In this document: positions 44,749-64,000 of the stretch, piece by piece
Layout of the letters: each line of letters starts with the position of its first letter
Position numbering within the stretch: the first letter of the stretch is position 1
Assembly: GCA_009869945.1 (NCBI GenBank)
Contig: WIXG01000303.1
Location: forward strand, 32,568-96,567
Origin: Mesaphorura yosii
Lineage: Eukaryota; Arthropoda; Collembola; Poduromorpha; Tullbergiidae
Reading direction: 5' to 3'
DNA length: 64,000 nt
The notes under the pieces: model-generated
The model's database searches: none
Told to the model about the DNA's origin: nothing
What the model saw: the letters and a program-made list of their open reading frames with translations, nothing else
Translations under genes and position numbers: made by a program

Positions 44749-45724
44749 TTTAGACACAGATTTGCAGGCAAGTCATGCAGCGTTTGATCTGCAGTGTATC
44801 AGAGTTATTAAGTCAATTCCTGTAATGATTTAAACAGCAAGTAAGTCAATTCTAACAGAGTTTGGTAACAGAGTTCTGCATGTGTCAAGTGCGAATATGC
44901 GTACGAGCGCAGCAGGATTTTAGATAAGATAAGAACGTGTGATTGTAATTGTGTCGTTCGCTAAATCAAAATTCTTATCTCCAGCCACCGCAGCAGCCGT
45001 GAAATTCATTCCATTCAAACGTGAAATGCTTGAGCTCGGGCGGAGCATAGCCAAGTCATCGAATTTAGTTCGAGTAATCCAGTAATTCGCAATGTATTGA
45101 AGCAGTAAGAACAGTAGACAATCGCAAAAAGTACCCAACGCCCAAGCAATGCGCAAAGATTGAGACGGAGCCACGAGTAAATTCGAATTGGCGAATTACG
45201 TAATTAGAAATGTTATGTTTTACGTAATTACAAGATTTTATGTGCACATTTTTATAATTTCCGGGTTGAGCTGCTGAGTTTTGAGTGATTTATGCCTTGC
45301 CTGATGTAAATGCACAATGAATACGCGCAGGAATCATGTCATGAGTAATCGTAAGTAATCATCGTTGTTGTTATTACAGATTCGTGACCAGTTCAGCCTC
45401 AACCTTGACTGACAAACTGCCGAAGTTCGCAACTCACTTTCCATGATGTGCATCATTGCAAAACAGCAACCAGCGCAGGGCAACGATAAATCATCAAATT
45501 CATCACGTTTCGTGGAATTTATGCACATTGCGAGCTCAAAACAGTCCAAAGTCTCGTCGACTAGCAAGCGTGGCCTGGCCTTCAGAACCCCGAAAAATAC
45601 CAAAACAACATAACACATAAAAGAGGTACCCAACAATTAAATCCAGCTCAGACTCATCCTGTGACTCGTCCAGTAGACAAGAACGCGAAAAAGAAGCTTA
45701 GCCAAGAACTGATCAGCAATCAGC
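44749..45724. other. Divergent intergenic region; no supported gene
   Basis: It separates the coiled-coil gene (-) from the beta-helix gene (+). A minus-strand open frame at 44920-45174 has a hydrophobic stretch but no splice context or recognisable domain. Both promoters must lie here; no clear TATA box was found. Confidence 0.4.
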
Positions 45725-46763
45725 ATGAAGTGGCAGCCGTTAATCGTGGCGATGGTGGCAGCTTTTGCTTTGCTGTGCCAAACGGAGGCTCGAGTGATCA
45801 AACCTGCGTCTACCGCCGAGCTGCAGTCCGCTCTTGCCTCAGCCGGGAAGGGAGACACGATCCAAATGCTGCCAATGCACTACAAAGGCGACTTTGTGAT
45901 CCCCGCCAGCTCTGGGCCCGCCACGCTCGTGGGCGACTACAATTCGACGATCGAATCCGAGGAGGGAGGCGGCAACATCGGACTTCACGTGCAGGGAAAC
46001 GGCTGGAAGATCAAGAGCTTCTGGATCAAGGGACCAGTGCAGGGACTGCTGATTGAGGGGACGGGCAACTCCATCGAAGGGGTCGTCCTCCAGAAGACGA
46101 CGCACGCGATGGTGGTGAAGGGAGAAGAGAACACGATCAAGAGCTGCGTCATCTCCGAGGCGGAGTTGGGCATCATTGTCGAAGCGTCCAAGAATTCTTT
46201 GTACTACAACTCTGTTAATATCCAAACACCAGCGATCATCATCAAAGAGGGCACGTGCTGCGGGTTGCTCGATGGCAACGTGGCGAACGGGGAGTTCAAT
46301 CTTGATGGATCGGAGTGGAAACTGAATGGAAACGTCGCGAATCACGGGCTGTATATCAAAGGATGCAAGAACGAACTCATGGGCAACGTGGCTAACGGTA
46401 TGCCAATTAATTTGTACTAAATTACTAAATGCAATCAACTTAACTTTAACTTACGAACTTACGCACCCGTCGTTCGTTGGCCTTTTCCTTGGCGGCGCAG
46501 GTGCAAGATTCCCTCCGGAGTGCGAGCAGGTGGATTTGGGCGGAAATGTGTATCGTGGACTTGGGCCAGGAGACACGGACCTTCCAAATCCAAATCAACC
46601 ACAGTATCAGCAGGATCAACAGTATCAGCAGCAGAATCAGAATTTGGCCTACAATGCAAATTCTTTTGCTCGTGGAGGCGGTGGAGGACAAGGCCAAAAT
46701 GTTCCAGTCCAGGTTCAAGGAAATGGCCCTCAGCCGAAATGCTCGTGCTCTTGCGCGTATTGA
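45725..46763 (+). CDS. Secreted right-handed parallel beta-helix protein (pectin-lyase fold) with Q/N-rich tail
   Basis: Two exons, 45725-46397 and 46501-46763 (donor AACG/GTATGC, acceptor GCGGCGCAG, phase 1), give about 311 residues. The signal peptide is MKWQPLIVAMVAAFALLCQTEA. Residues of about 25-225 show the short Gly/Asn/Ile-rich periodicity of beta-helices (GLHVQGNGWKIKSF, GLLIEGTGNSIEGV, AMVVKGEENTIKSC, GIIVEASKNSLYYN). The motif GNVAN then recurs three times and GNVY once. The second exon adds a Gln/Asn-rich stretch (QPQYQQDQQYQQQNQN), a Gly run and a C-terminal CSCSCAY. The fold is shared by polysaccharide lyases and by non-enzymatic proteins; I cannot place catalytic residues, so enzyme activity is not claimed. 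The tail may mediate cross-linking or matrix association (inference). Confidence 0.65.
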
Positions 46764-55430: not shown

Positions 55431-56230
55431 CTAATCGAGTTTACAATAATGGTAGCGAACATTGACGAGGTTTTCCTTGTTGAAACCAAGGGACTCTCCG
55501 TACTCGGTAAACTTCTTCACGTCTGCCTCGTCCAGATCGGGCGTAGTTCCCATCATGGCCCAGCTCGCAGTCCCGTCGTCGTAGCACGTGATGACCACGG
55601 CGTACGTCTTGTTGTCCGTCATCGGGATGGTCTTGGTGGCCTTCAGCTCTGTTGAAGGGAGTAATTAATTTAATTACAGGCGTGGCGGGCAGAATTCTAT
55701 TTTTTACGCAAGCCAGCGGAATCGAGAATTTCTTACTTAAATGCTGCAGCTCGAACGTCTTGCCGTTGAGTGGAGGCCCGGTTGGCGTTGCGATGACCCG
55801 GCCAACCTTCCCCATCGACTTGTACGAAGGCGGACCCTCCTCAGGCGTGTTCACGACAATGCAGGCGTCAAAGTACACGTCGACTTCCCAAAGTTCTTCT
55901 ATCGTCTTGTTCTGGACCTCGGCAGCCGTTCTGAACAGCTGCAGTTTGCTGACAGGGTTGAAGTACCAAGTCCGGACGGATTTAAACTGTAAAGTATCAA
56001 ACTACAAGTAACGAAGAAACGCATGTGGAAGGACATAGACGCTTAATTGTGTTACCAACCAATCTCCAACTTACCCATTTCATGTCCAAAGTCGGCGTGG
56101 TCGGCGGCTGATTTTCAGGACATTTTTCCTTAAAGAATTGGTCCTCGGCACCATGTACGGCTTGGAGCAGGCCTAAAATCAGTAAGCAGGCCAACGAGGC
56201 GAATGCTGGTCTTAAATTGCAGCGGAACAT
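55431..56230 (-). CDS. Secreted lipocalin-like protein B
   Basis: Three exons, 56075-56230, 55737-55986 and 55431-55648, give about 207 residues, a normal lipocalin length. The signal peptide begins MFRCNLRPAFASLACLLILG; the ATG at 56230 is preferred over an in-frame ATG-like codon seven residues upstream. The mature part starts with a Cys-containing segment (EKCPENQPPTTP). FKSVRTWYFNPVSKLQLF corresponds to the lipocalin GxW region. TYAVVITCYDDGTASWAMMG corresponds to the TDY and Cys strand, and a C-terminal helix ends in YHYCKLD. Intron phases (0, 1) are identical to gene C, so the two are tandem duplicates. Expected role: an extracellular carrier of small hydrophobic ligands; the ligand is unknown. 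Intact. Confidence 0.65.
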
Positions 56231-56323
56231 TTTGGAATTGGGTGAAGACACCAGGATTAGGATGTGGAGACGTACTCTTCTGCCAAACTGCTGATTTGAA
56301 AGCGAACGAGTGCAGTTCAGCTT

Positions 56324-56335
56324 GCGTTTTATATC
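56324..56335 (-). promoter_or_regulatory. TATA box of lipocalin-like gene B
   Basis: GATATAAAACGC on the minus strand, about 95 nt upstream of the ATG, is followed by GCACTCGTTCGCTTT. The same arrangement stands upstream of gene C, so the core promoter was duplicated with the gene. Confidence 0.6.
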
Positions 56336-56869
56336 AAGGCTGTCAAAAGAACTAGAACAATCTGACTAGTCTGAATTAGGTCATGTATTTAGAAATAGAA
56401 AGGTGCGAATTTAAACTGCCGCCTTCTGTTGTTGCCCTCAAAGTGTTTGGTGCGACGCGCCGCACGATAGCGCGACTTCACGAGCCAACAGCCAATCGCT
56501 TCGACAGCACATGGAAAACTTTGAGAGTGTCAAAGGAAAGTGAAGTGACTTTGCCGATGATCGAATGATTAAATGATGGAATCAGGCCAGGTTAAGTCAC
56601 ACCATTGTGACATTTGCCGGTGATTCGCGGCGATGGACCTGCAGCGCGTGAAGGTTTGCTCATTGCAACTCCCAAACACAGCCATGCCGCCGCCACGACC
56701 CACAAGGGGACGGAGGTAGTCGCTCAATCAGAGATCATGTGCAACGACGATGGTGCATTAAGTGATCACGATGTGTAAATGACAGTTCAGTGGCCGCGAG
56801 TCATTCACGTTTCGTATGTGATGTTCGGTTGACTATAAAACATCTATCATTTCTCTCACAGCGGCAGAC

Positions 56870-57096
56870 ATGGCTGAAGCAAAGTTAATCCAGCATGAAT
56901 TTTATTCGGAAATAGTTTTAAACGAGAAAACCGCAGTCGAATTTTTAAAAAAAATGGAATTCTATGTACCGACAATCAAGTGTACATGAAAGTGAAAGAC
57001 GGCGTGCCGTGCAATTCCAAGTTTAAGGAGGTTTTTAAGAAAAGGAAAACCACCTATAAGATGCAGCAACTGGAGATGCGGCACGTTCCAGTCTAA
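56870..57096 (+). pseudogene. Short degenerate ORF with a TATA box, unidentified
   Basis: TATAAA at 56834-56839 precedes an ATG at 56870 reading MAEAKLIQHEFYSEIV and TAVEFLKK. In an A8 run the frame changes. One added base restores NGILCTDNQVYMKVKDG and KRKTTYKMQQLEMRHVPV to the stop at 57094-57096. The pattern of a short N-terminus, FLxKxGIL, a Cys and then a Lys/Arg-rich stretch loosely recalls the zinc-ribbon start of ISXO2/Merlin-type transposases, but the Cys spacing is incomplete. It may be a transposon remnant or a small gene. Confidence 0.3.
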
Positions 57097-57371
57097 GTTA
57101 ACTGTGGCATAAAGTCTGAAATGAGCTGACGCACAAAAAACATAAGCAGAGAACGTGACTTTGTCATTGCGACTTTTGTGGCGGAACGAAATCCAAAACT
57201 GCAAAGATTTTGGGAAAGCTTCGCACGCATGGAATTTTACTCTCTTCTGACGTGCAGGAAATGGAAAGCAGGACCACCTATAAATTGCCAATTCAAACGT
57301 TTTTAATTCCTGGTTGGATTTATTTCTGCTTGTTAACTTTTTCTAAGCTTTCCTGTCCTAGCAGGGTTGCA

Positions 57372-58153
57372 TTAGCATTTATTAACTTCGCAATCCACCA
57401 ATTTGCAATGGCTGTAGTTAATAAGGACTAAATTTTTTCGATCAAGCCCGTGGGCCTCCCCGAACGCGATAAACTTCTTCAGAACTTCGGGATCAGGTTC
57501 TGGGCTGATATTCATCATAGCCCAGGAACCCGAGCCGTCCTCGTAACAGGAGAAGAAGGTCATGTAGGTCTTGTTGTCGGTCAGCGGCATTGTCGTATTG
57601 CCTTTGGCATCTGTTGAATGTTAAATATAGTGCCTGCAGCAGCATGAAGGTTTCCTACAGCAGGCATAAATCTTTCTTTAATTCCTTACCGTAGTTTTGG
57701 AATTCAAAGTGCATGCCATTCAGTGGAGGTCCGGTCGGTTTGACGAAGAAGTGGACCTTCTTTCCCATTGAAGTGTACGTCGGGTCGTTCTTTGGGTCTG
57801 CAGGCCATTGGACGATAACGCAGCCATCGTAGTACACGTTTTCCTCGCGCAAGGAGCCCAGAGTAACGTTCTGGACATCGGCCGCCGACCGGAACAACTC
57901 CAGTTTGCTGATTGGCGTGTAATACCAAGTACGGACGGACATGAACTGCGGAAACAAATCACTTGTAGCAAAATGGATAGTTAAGACCCTTTAATAAGGC
58001 CTCCAAATTTTAACCTACCCATTTCATGTCGAAATCCGGCGTGGTAACCGGCATGGGATTCGGACACTTTTCGTAGAAAAAGCTCTCATCTAAGCTGCTC
58101 ACACTTTGAAACAAGCCCAAAACTAATACAAAGGCAAGCTTGGTGAATACCAT
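57372..58153 (-). CDS. Secreted lipocalin-like protein C
   Basis: Three exons, 58019-58153, 57690-57945 and 57372-57610, give about 209 residues. The signal peptide is MVFTKLAFVLVLGLFQSVSS; an in-frame ATG nine codons upstream is possible. Each block of gene B is matched: EKCPNPMPVTTPDFDMKW, FMSVRTWYYTPISKLELF, YDGCVIVQW, KPTGPPLNGMHFEFQNYG, TYMTFFSCYEDGSGSWAMM and a C-terminal helix with SHCKL. The protein then extends by VDCEVNKC, adding two cysteines not present in B. Intron phases are the same as in B, and a minus-strand AATAAA lies at 57324-57319. Expected role: secreted small-ligand binding. Intact. Confidence 0.65.
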
Positions 58154-58263
58154 TTTGGAGTTGGAGCTGGAACTCAACATTTTGTCACTCAGATGAACTT
58201 TAGCTTATTGGAGTTGTTTTTAACTACTGAATAGATTTAAAAGCGTATGAGTGCGATGCAGCT

Positions 58264-59312: not shown

Positions 59313-62300
59313 TTACAAATTATCCTGTGGCATAAACTTTATGGCAAAGTCAAAACTTGCATTGATGTCATCATCGCCATCTAGTCTAAGAGCGACCCCA
59401 AATCCGTCCTTCAGTTCCCCGAATCGTACTCGAGCATCCGGATCCTCCGCCCAGCAACGACGCGTGAGTTCGTAGATGTCGGTGGTCATGTACTGCGGTT
59501 TAGCGAGTTCTGTGGCGCTAAGCACACAATCTGGTTCGCGGCCGAGCGTGAACATTTCCCACAGCAACACGCCGAAGGTCCACACGTCCATCTGGGGTCT
59601 CAGGCTCTTGCGATCCCTGACCTCCGGCGGAAGGAGTCGGGCTTCAGGCAGGCATTGCTGGAAGGCGTAGCAAAAATACGAATTTTAATCGCATCAGGAA
59701 TATATACACAAGTATTTCAGTATTCTCACTGCGTTATAGTAAGGCTCTCCCGGCTTGTATTGCCTAGAAAGCCCAAAATCCGTGATTTTCGCAATTCCAT
59801 CGACGGTCATTACAATATTTTTCAGGAGCAGATCCCCATGAATGACATGTTTCTCTCCGGACAGGTACTCCATCCCGTTCGCGATCTGGAGGGACCACCG
59901 TACCAGGTTGGTCGTGAAGTAATTGATGGGTCTGTCGTATTGCGTGACTCGAATCGACCTTGAGGAAACGAACGATTCACATAATTATTTGCAAACATAT
60001 TTGAAAGACTGCAACTCACGATCCGAAATAGACCACATCCACGCGATCGTCCACGATTTGATCTAGAAACGTGGAGCGGTTCCCCTTCAGGAATTTAAGC
60101 AGACTACCCCGGTCGCAGTACTCCAGCATCATTTCAGGTCGCTCAAACTCCTTCGTGTAGGCGCAAATCAGCTCAACCACGTTCTCATGCTTGCCGACGT
60201 AGGAGAGAATCTTGATTTCCGTGTGGATGCAGTTGGCTTGGTTCAGGTTGTTGGCGTCCTTGCATTTCTTGATGGCGACCACCCGTTCTTGGCCGTTTAT
60301 TCGTATGGTTCCTTTCTGGACAATTCCGAAGCAGCCGGCGATACCCTTATCCTCACCTGTACACCAGATAAACCTCTATTAACTACTAGGGTATATAATA
60401 TATTCCTATATTATATGGCATATAATATACTAACCATAATGTATATACCCCTTTGGAATCTCGTACTTCTCGTGGTCATATGCCAGCCCCTGCGCGACCA
60501 CCGCGCCGTCCTCGATCACCCCGTCCCTTAACTCTGGGTTACCCTTCCGGAAGTTGTACTCCATTTTCGCAATTCTGTTTCGCGACGCGCGTAGTCTCCG
60601 CTGATACCAAATCGCGACTCCCGTCGCCACGAGCAGCAGTACAACCAGCGGTACGGCGCCGAATATGACGAGTTTCTGACTCAGTCCGGTGAGTTTGACC
60701 TTAAGATCGTGCCCACACCTGCAGTAGTCGCCCGGATTAACGAATTCCTCAGTCTTGAACTTGGGGTTCAGGAAGGGGAAGATTTTGTCCTTGAAGGAAA
60801 CCCGGATTCCGGATGTATTATTACGGGGGCACAGGGCGCCGGTCTTCCGATCGATACAGGGCAAATCGTGCTCGCAGGGCGGGGGCTCCGCATCCTCTTC
60901 GTATGGGTCCACGTAACTCTCGAACCGTCCCCTCCAGTAGGCTGGGTCACACACTGAATTTCTACGGAGTACGCACGTGCTCGACCCCGCGTCCCATACC
61001 AGTTCGACGTTTGGCGCCGGATTCGGGTGACAATCACACAACTCGAATGCGTTACAGTACAGATTCTTGTATGTCGTGCAGAATGTCGCGTTTTTGTATA
61101 GCAGCCACTTCAGCCCGTCAGCCAAGAGCGATCGAAGTGTGCGCTCATTACTGAGTTTGTCGTACACGTCCGCCCTGTGCAGAGTCGGGTCGAGTGGGCC
61201 ATCGAGTTTCGACAGTTTGCCCAAATTCGACGACTTGAGTTCCTCGGCGCTTGTATTGCACACCGACCCTCGCTGGAGGTGGTTTCGCTTGGAAAATATG
61301 GACAGTCGTGTGAATAGTACTTGGGCGAGGGAGGAGAAGGACTTTAATACCAAAGGGTCCATGCAGACACAGTCCAAGCTGTCTCCTTCGCTTGATTTCA
61401 CTTCCAGACGCAGCATGTACTCTCGCAATGCAGTTGCGTCCTTCCCATCGGGGTCAAGGGTCATCAGCATCCTTTTCGTGGTCTTGTTGTACACTGGTTC
61501 GCATCTAGCTCCGTCCGTCGTCAGAGAGCACAGGTCGTACATCCAGCATTCGCTACTCACTATCGTTCGAACCAGTCCAAGTCTCTGATAGCTGACAGTT
61601 GGAAAATCGAGAATGCATGCCCGGTTCAGTTTAGTTATGTCGTTTATGCATCCGAGTATGTCGCGTGGGTCGGAGGGCAAGTCGACCGACCTACAGTTGC
61701 ACTTCGAGTCGTTTCCGCACACCAGATTCTGGTACACACTGCAGAACTGTCCGGGAATGCTGTTCGTGCGCATCAGACGCTGCGTTATCTCTGTGAATTC
61801 CTGTAGCACTAGGTCTGAGGTTTCAGATAGACTGTAATTGGACAGGTGAACATTCAACCGCTCCATCTCGGCGGTAGCATTGCAGCTTTCATGCAGTCGC
61901 AGAGTGTTTTTGCTCGCAGATGTGCGCAACTCTTTCCGCAGTTGGTCGTACACCGCTTCTCGTACGTATGTGGGTGTGTACGCAACACTCGCGATCCAGG
62001 CGTCACTCACACTCACTAATGGGTTGCTCGGCTCCTCAAACTTAGCGTATGCACTGGGCGAGATGTAAATGGTGTTGTTTGTACACGTGTCACAAAATCC
62101 AACGATCCTGGCCTGAACCAGCTGACCACTCTTGGCACTGGCAAGGGTTATTATGGAAAGACAGACAATCTGGGAGTCGGACGCATCAGAGCCAAGGAGA
62201 GTATGCACGATCGCTGGTGAGACGATGGCGATGTCTTCATTGGGGTCAATCTCTGATCGTGATCCGGGCGGGGTGCAGGAGAAGGGACCGCTCATTTCAC

Positions 62301-62406
62301 GCCGATAAACTTGGATTCCACTATGAGCGTGCCCGAGCGAGGGTAAAAATTGCGCGACTAGGACTAGGACCCCGAATCGGGGAAATATATTTATGGGCAC
62401 AAACAT
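59313..62406 (-). CDS. Receptor tyrosine kinase with an N-terminal double-psi beta-barrel (barwin/expansin-like) domain
   Basis: Four exons, 60435-62406, 60020-60356, 59730-59958 and 59313-59657, encode 960 residues, intact. A signal peptide (1-28) is followed by residues 29-142, which read as a double-psi beta-barrel: SGIQVYRREMSGPFSC, NEDIAIVSPAIV, IVC (Cys82), VQARIVGFCDTC, TIYISPSAYAKF and DAW. This parallels the RlpA/expansin order GxxTxY..GaC, VAVS, C, VxVxDxCPxC, DLSPxAF, W. Residues 170-305 and 380-530 are two related Cys-rich repeats (FCxxYxNLxC...CxC). The transmembrane helix is 579-601 and the juxtamembrane has YDHEKYEIP. Kinase: Gly-loop region GCFGIV, VAIKK (Lys687), Glu704, HGD 810-812, Asn817, DFG 830-832, DVWTFGVLLWEM and RCW. 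Tyrosine (not serine) kinase type is inferred from the RTK-like motifs. The ligand is unknown. Confidence 0.85.
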
Positions 62407-62886: not shown

Positions 62887-64000
62887 ATGAGCTTTTGGGA
62901 TTTTCTGCACATGAGCCCAAGGGCCACTCCCGCTTTGTTGCAGCAACTGCACTCTAAGTACGAGCCGCCATTCTCCGTTCATGTACGCGAGCAGCTAGGC
63001 GGTTGGATTGAGAAAAATCTGACAAATTCGTAAGTTCAGTCGGCGACCAGTCACCTATTTGCCCACCTACTAATTAATTCGTGATTCATTTCCAGGAACT
63101 TGAACGCTCAAAATCCCGCGGATTACGCCGGAATCTGTCAGCTTCTCAATTATCTCCGTGCTCGGATTGATGCGGAGGTTGAGAGGCTCATTCGAGAGAT
63201 GCCAGGTGCTCACGTCGTCAGATGCGACCTCCAACATGCTTCGAGCCTCCTCCAGGTATGACGGCGTCCACTCTAGTTTCTAATGCCCCGTTTGGATGTA
63301 TCATTTTCCCATAATTCCAACTTTATGTCAACAGAACGTACTTCTCAGTCCCGAAGCTGTGAGAGTATTCTACGCTCAAATTCGATTCGTGTTGAATATC
63401 GAGTCTGGACTCTTCCAGCAATTTCAAGTGCAGGGTTCTGATCTTGAAATGTATATCACATCAATCCAGCAAAACCTTGCGGGTGCCAGCATTCCGCAGC
63501 AAAGTATCCAGAATTTGGCCCACGGCCAGGATCACGCCGATTCGTCGGGCGCGCACAAGCACGTATTCCCTGACATTCGAGCAGCCATGCAGGAACTGCG
63601 CCACAACGTGAACGGATCCCTTCAACTCTTTCAGCGAATGCAGGGCCAACTTCAGGACATGAACGTCGAGAACGGCCGGTTGAACGAGTTCATGACATTT
63701 GTTCGCGTAATTCTCACTCTGTCTCGTTCCCTGTTCAGCGACAACATTCAAAAGAAGCTTCTGGCTCTGAGACGAGGTACTGATCTCACGTGGACGCCAG
63801 CAATGCTGGACACTTTTCAGAACCACTGCTCAGAGTTTGCTGAGGTCCTTCATGACTGTCGGGTGCTCCTAAGCGAGCTGCAGAGGCTCTTTCCGGACGC
63901 GTTGACGCAACTGTCGGATCTTCAAGATCAATTTGCGGAATTAGTCCGGACGTTCGAATCTCTCTCCTTCATTGTCGAGACTCAACCGTGCGAAGTCAGC
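62887..64000 (+). CDS. STAT: STAT transcription factor, N-terminal domain and coiled coil (partial)
   Basis: Exons 62887-63029, 63096-63255 and 63335 to the window end give 323 residues without a stop; the DNA-binding, SH2 and activation parts lie beyond the right edge. The start MSFWDFLHMSP is followed by ALLQQLHSKYEPPFSVHVRE and LGGWIEKN, matching the STAT interaction domain (W..xxLP...L.QL...Y...FP.EVR..L..WIE). From about residue 130 a long helical region runs (IRAAMQELRHNVNGSL, LFQRMQGQLQDMN), and the segment ends TFESLSFIVETQPCEVS. That matches the junction of the STAT coiled coil with the DNA-binding domain (TSTFIIEKQP). Known role: a latent cytoplasmic factor activated by tyrosine phosphorylation. 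Splice phases agree. Confidence 0.85.

Follow-up and report, generated by a model that had tools for sequence, protein, structure and literature searches.

Receptor tyrosine kinases (RTKs) draw on a limited set of ectodomain folds, and we know of no animal RTK that carries a barrel of the expansin/RlpA/barwin type. Elsewhere, double-psi beta-barrels (DPBB) of this type are familiar from proteins of plants, fungi and bacteria whose ligands are cell-wall sugars or proteases. The locus studied here lies in a stretch of 64,000 nucleotides, referred to as the window, and raises the question whether a gene for a receptor kinase indeed begins with such a barrel and, if so, what this barrel may do on the receptor. 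A preliminary description of the DNA had stated that no animal receptor kinase with the barrel is known. Among the papers listed in our literature search, which was confined to openly accessible journal papers and judged by titles and abstract openings, none likewise described an animal RTK with a DPBB. In the main text of a springtail genome paper (PMC5490193), the words tyrosine, kinase, expansin, barwin and RlpA are absent.

The receptor gene and its product

The receptor gene, rebuilt from the sequence, occupies positions 62406 to 59313 on the minus strand of the window, consists of four exons and encodes a protein of 960 amino acids (Table 1). Exon 1 is a single open frame of 657 codons running from the first in-frame ATG past the transmembrane (TM) helix, and exons 2 to 4 are spliced in frame at GT/AG borders. 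The gene model of the preliminary description was confirmed, and its observation that barrel and TM helix share one uninterrupted exon also held. From the N- to the C-terminus, the protein comprises a signal peptide, the barrel, two cysteine-rich units, the TM helix and a tyrosine kinase domain, with the signal peptide and the TM helix called by hydrophobicity. The gene product thus has the layout of an RTK, as predicted from its sequence: a signal peptide, a single TM helix and a tyrosine kinase domain. While the barrel had been recognized before, the two cysteine-rich units between barrel and membrane had been overlooked. Compared as a whole with the PDB and with Pfam, exon 1 yielded one chance-level match each. 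An immunoglobulin domain was not found in this exon, and the sole Pfam match at E≤10 (E 0.16) is a chance-level match to a non-immunoglobulin entry. Rfam gave no match in the window at gathering thresholds.

Table 1 Positions of the receptor gene, its encoded domains and neighbouring genes in the window
Feature	Position	Strand	Basis or remark
Signal peptide, residues 1-28	62323..62406	-	Inferred: hydrophobic window from residue 3; first in-frame ATG
Double-psi beta-barrel-like domain, residues ~30-144	61975..62319	-	Family profile and alignments; alone without Pfam match
Cysteine-rich unit 1, residues ~165-350	61357..61914	-	Family alignment; distant repeat of unit 2
Cysteine-rich unit 2, residues ~352-566	60709..61353	-	Family alignment
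Transmembrane helix, residues 579-597	60616..60672	-	Mean Kyte-Doolittle 2.74
Exon 1: signal peptide, barrel, cysteine-rich units, TM helix, juxtamembrane segment	60435..62406	-	
Exon 2: kinase N-lobe	60020..60356	-	PF07714 E 1.4e-13
Exon 3: catalytic loop HGDLLLKN and DFG	59730..59958	-	PF07714 E 1.1e-14
Exon 4: kinase C-lobe and stop	59313..59657	-	PF07714 E 2e-15
5' part of STAT-like gene	62887..64000	+	Exons 62887-63029, 63096-63255, 63335-64000; cut by contig end
ORFs of tandem small genes	55441-56001 with 55997-56365; 57655-57990 with 58010-58204	-	

A family of related receptors

The preliminary description dealt with a single receptor gene. This gene exists, but it is accompanied by relatives: when the genome (93 Mb, 1127 contigs) was searched with the window ectodomain as query, at least eight receptor members, the window's own included, and additional decayed copies were found. 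The seven paralogs are C610 (L007), C508 (L008), C482 (L009), C886 (L010), C806 (L011), C355 (L013) and C1062 (L019). Barrel and TM helix lie in one open frame in seven of the eight members, the exception being L013, where the frame stops before any helix, due to an intron or a disruption. In L008, L009, L011 and L019, barrel, helix and kinase N-lobe even share one intron-free open frame, and splice prediction is therefore unnecessary for these four. Among five frames scanned, four (not that of L007) matched PF07714, and two of them, L009 and L011, also matched PF03330, in both cases below the curated cut-off. L019 stands apart in that it lacks both cysteine-rich units; its barrel leads to the membrane, and barrel and kinase occupy one open frame. 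Decayed or incomplete copies of the ectodomain were seen at L062, L063, L065, L069, L073 (C666), L071 (C971), L067 (C387) and L070 (C442), several of which are interrupted by stops or shifts of frame, a sign that the family may turn over by birth and death of its genes. Sixty-six matches to PF00379, a cuticle family characteristic of arthropods, suggest an arthropod source of the genome, and the receptors are probably a lineage-expanded RTK family of this animal.

The two cysteine-rich units of about 200 residues each have a common cysteine layout and are distant repeats of each other over 88 columns (E 3.2e-6). At E≤1, Pfam gave no match for unit 1 in any of seven members and none for unit 2 in any of six, and the best PDB matches (E 0.37 and E 0.17, respectively) are at chance level. 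Mean pairwise identity amounts to 0.47 for unit 2 (alignment of six members), 0.36 for the barrel (eight members) and 0.28 for unit 1 (seven members), which makes unit 2 the most conserved part of the ectodomain. Cysteine-rich units were also seen at three places at which a barrel was looked for and not found. On C505 (L012/L015/L018), a long open frame contains several of them; on C690 (L072), a related unit is encoded in an open frame close to a CUB domain (PF00431, E 8.7e-14); and on C698 (L068), a piece of unit 2 precedes a hydrophobic stretch.

The kinase domain of the window receptor retains the beta3 lysine (VAIK), the aspartate of the HxD motif and DFG. Across the family, HGD is present in all eight members, the beta3 lysine in seven (it was not seen in L013) and DFG in seven (it was not found in L019 by motif scans). 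The canonical catalytic-loop motif of tyrosine kinases is HRDLAARN. In the receptors, the arginine of HRD is replaced by glycine in 8/8 cases, and the usual AAR is replaced as well, so that kinase activity of the window receptor, as judged from these residues, is likely rather than proven. When the window kinase was compared with the PDB, an EGFR chain came first, followed by chains of VEGFR, KIT, PDGFR, CSF1R and FGFR3 (best 60 of 331 matches). Judged by search rank within these best 60 of 331, the kinase domain is nearest to those of established RTKs, among them KIT, PDGFR and VEGFR. With KIT, PDGFR, CSF1R and VEGFR, which are among the best solved kinase matches listed, behind the EGFR chain, the window receptor also shares the single-pass design. 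It differs from them in having a barrel and cysteine-rich units and HGDLLLKN instead of HRDLAARN, and the immunoglobulin ectodomain by which class III/V RTKs (PDGFR/VEGFR) are recognized was not found.

A neighbour of the receptor gene had escaped the preliminary description. Transcribed divergently and starting 481 bases from the receptor ATG, a STAT-like gene, whose 5' part is contained in the window, matches STAT_int (PF02865) with 26.4 bits at a curated cut-off of 26. A second STAT-like gene (L077/L022) precedes receptor L019 in tandem on C1062; its SH2 domain scores 29 bits (cut-off 21), and the remainder was assigned by reading. Among the best candidates scored, none of the contigs carrying the remaining six members gave an SH2 match, and the idea that every member resides beside a STAT was rejected for this reason. 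Present at two of eight loci, the linkage is a hint, and no proof, that receptor and STAT act in one pathway; it may equally reflect a common duplicated block. We do not favour C1062 as the continuation of contig C303 through the cut STAT gene; C1062 seems to have upstream STAT parts of its own, and the ends of the two contigs showed no exact overlap of 20-60 bases. Elsewhere in the window, two similar small genes in tandem (55441-58204, minus strand) look secreted and perhaps lipocalin-like by eye, with no Pfam match at E≤10 for their two main ORFs, and an ORF at 45713-46417 (plus strand) weakly matches NosD-type repeats (E 0.002, below the cut-off).

Kinship of the barrel

Besides the receptors, the genome encodes three non-receptor barrels (C97, C420 and C64), which exceed the Pfam cut-off for DPBB_1 and are putatively secreted. 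A profile built from them finds the papain inhibitor 5ntb at E 1.1e-19. They differ from the receptor barrels in residing in short, kinase-free frames of 107-128 amino acids and in having DKC and DIDLSPAAF intact, and resemble them in direct sequence matches, which single-sequence searches of the whole genome gave in both directions: the L013 receptor barrel finds C97 (E 9.4e-4), and L002 finds the receptor on C355 (E 3.8e-4). Further barrel sequences were noted in passing. A fourth piece of the non-receptor type lies at C664:18633-18767, and L001 (C349:44800-45045) is a different DPBB protein with 59 bits to PF03330, RlpA-like by eye. A short fragment of a non-receptor-type barrel at C886:7217-7321 (in L078) is located about 1.4 kb past the end of the L010 kinase. 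It carries stops and is all that is present there of a barrel donor gene beside L010, a candidate that was accordingly dismissed.

The preliminary description had the window barrel matching its family pattern from end to end. The named motifs are indeed present (Cys44, Cys82, Cys105-x2-Cys108, ISPSAY and the Trp), but the confident profile alignment is confined to the C-terminal 59 columns. Alignment of the N-terminal part is unreliable, with the correspondence of Cys44 set by eye, and the N-terminal half aligns with the non-receptor barrels only in permissive or global mode. Taken alone, the window barrel has no Pfam match at E≤10, and single-sequence hhalign against the non-receptor barrels gives a probability of 26% (E 7e-4). 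Prediction by AlphaFold from the single sequence without an alignment returned a mean pLDDT of 41.5, too low to decide on the fold. Against the non-receptor-barrel profile, the window barrel scores only 15.3 bits, where the best of 2000 shuffles reaches 8.9. Its kinship with the other receptor barrels is clear, with 52.8 bits against the profile of these seven (leave-one-out; best of 2000 shuffles 8.6). Since the window barrel is weak by itself, its DPBB membership rests on its paralogs.

PF03330 (DPBB_1) is matched at E≤10 by six of the eight receptor barrels, with 25.4 bits and E 1.7e-5 in the best case; none reaches the curated cut-off of 28.8. Nor does a ninth barrel, a decayed one with 27.3 bits. 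Like that of the window, the L007 barrel, which lacks the CxxC pair and the Phe, has no DPBB match in Pfam. When the family profile was compared with all PDB sequences, all nine matches at E≤10 were DPBB-type by name: papain inhibitor (5ntb, the best, E 0.0035), expansins, an RlpA-like protein, barwins, sugarwin and two entries named 'cellulose binding protein', both of which were also found by the non-receptor-barrel profile. Direct comparison of receptor and non-receptor barrel profiles with hhalign resulted in E 7.4e-10 and a score of 57, a value to be compared with 200 column-shuffled profiles, none of which exceeded 20.5; as a decoy, cysteine unit 2 obtained a probability of 0.5% against the non-receptor-barrel profile. 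With the latter profile, seven of the eight receptor barrels beat all 2000 shuffles, L007 being absent among the matches listed. Cys82 and the last Trp are conserved in 11/11 barrels (eight receptor, three non-receptor), and CxxC in 7/8 receptor barrels.

We thus state with great confidence that the receptor has the described architecture and that its outer domain is akin to DPBB. The central claim of the preliminary description, a barwin/expansin/RlpA-like barrel joined to an RTK in one gene, is borne out by the gene model, the family profile and the intron-free paralogs. With RlpA, expansin and barwin proteins (PF03330; 5ntb, EXLX1 7wvr, barwin 1bw3, papaya barwin-like 4jp6), the receptor barrel shares the C-terminal half by profile along with Cys82, CxxC, a motif of the (I/L)SPxAF type and the final Trp. 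Known proteins of this group are secreted or cell-wall proteins, whereas here the domain is the outer part of a transmembrane kinase and conserved Asp residues are absent. This absence concerns three positions, the one preceding KC and both D positions of the DID in DIDLSP, which are occupied by Asp in 3/3 non-receptor but 0/8 receptor barrels (one cell of this comparison being a gap in a receptor barrel). Gly103 and Tyr114, previously proposed as replacements of Asp in the window barrel, do stand where the non-receptor barrels have Asp, and the loss is family-wide. Such Asp residues are important in bacterial expansin, and their loss throughout the family suggests that the receptor barrel may bind rather than catalyse.

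Function and origin of the barrel

As the best explanation overall, and a fairly probable one, we propose an RTK family with the DPBB as a membrane-distal, non-catalytic recognition head. A DPBB of the secreted-protein kind would have become the membrane-distal domain, in most members atop the two cysteine-rich units, and would recognize an extracellular ligand typical of DPBB proteins, i.e., a cell-wall polysaccharide or a cysteine-protease-type protein. Ligand binding would cluster the receptors, the clustered kinases would phosphorylate in trans and the signal would be relayed, with the product of the neighbouring STAT-like gene as a possible recipient. For the barrel as the ligand-binding head taken by itself, we hold the chances to be about even. 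A microbial, fungal or plant origin of the ligand is a tentative and rather doubtful proposal, and it is clearly unlikely that the barrel family serves RTK-based pattern recognition, in which microbial, fungal or plant wall material would be sensed and signalled to the STATs encoded beside some of the receptors. Plant receptor-like kinases combine wall-binding ectodomains of different folds with serine/threonine kinases; they would thus resemble the receptors in joining a head for wall-type ligands to a kinase and differ from them in kinase specificity, folds and kingdom. RsRlpA, a DPBB effector of Rhizoctonia solani, is reported to block papain and to associate with a plant cathepsin B-like protease (PMC7662947). 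Its DPBB fold, predicted for the receptors as well, serves RsRlpA in protein binding, and it differs from them as a fungal effector without receptor function. Together with the papain inhibitor as best PDB match, protease binding by RsRlpA leaves a protease-type ligand as open as a polysaccharide.

Several other explanations have to be weighed against this proposal. As the gene model of the window comes from sequence, it might be argued that a separate barrel gene was fused to the kinase in silico, but barrel and TM helix share an open frame in seven of eight members, and the four intron-free frames that unite barrel and kinase N-lobe leave so little room for separate genes that the probability of such an artefact is close to nil. 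Only slightly less improbable is a chance likeness, i.e., a divergent cysteine-rich domain in which a CxxC...SPSAF motif arose fortuitously. It would agree with the missing Pfam match and the low pLDDT of the isolated window barrel and is at odds with the uniform naming of the nine PDB matches, the shuffle controls, the low decoy probability and the invariant Cys82 and last Trp. We also consider a catalytic or wall-loosening role of the barrel, as a stalked expansin or lytic transglycosylase, to be most unlikely. It might be read from the Pfam description of PF03330 as 'Lytic transglycolase', but all eight receptor barrels lack the three Asp of the non-receptor barrels.

A stronger competitor is the view that the barrel is a mere spacer or a cap stabilizing the fold, and that a peptide growth factor binds to the cysteine-rich units as in ordinary RTKs. 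The conservation of unit 2, which exceeds that of barrel and unit 1, speaks for it; L019, however, has dispensed with both units and keeps barrel and kinase in one open frame, which we count as support for the barrel as the recognition part, and a membrane-distal domain is often the site of recognition. On balance we take the spacer view to be possible but doubtful. Concerning origin, the barrel may have reached this lineage horizontally, with a fungus or bacterium as donor and fusion to a kinase as a later step. Its solved relatives are microbial and plant proteins, judging by their names, and one springtail is reported to possess many genes gained by horizontal transfer (PMC5490193). On the other hand, the non-receptor barrels of this very genome match the receptor barrels directly, so that fusion with a resident animal gene is at least as plausible as transfer, even though these barrels could be transferred genes themselves. 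Limited scans, in which bacterial/archaeal and viral contigs were compared with patterns of the non-receptor barrels, yielded 68, 53 and 65 matching stretches and no confirmed relative; the patterns being few, this is weak evidence of absence. Altogether, horizontal acquisition appears rather unlikely.

As far as can be read from their sequences, the receptors described here form an RTK family whose ectodomain combination is new. An expansin/RlpA/barwin-type barrel would add an ectodomain fold to those of animal RTKs. The proposed recognition head provides the testable hypothesis of an animal kinase that may directly sense cell-wall polysaccharide or a foreign protease, and the eight members, the decayed copies and the member reduced to barrel plus kinase are natural variants with which this hypothesis may be tested.
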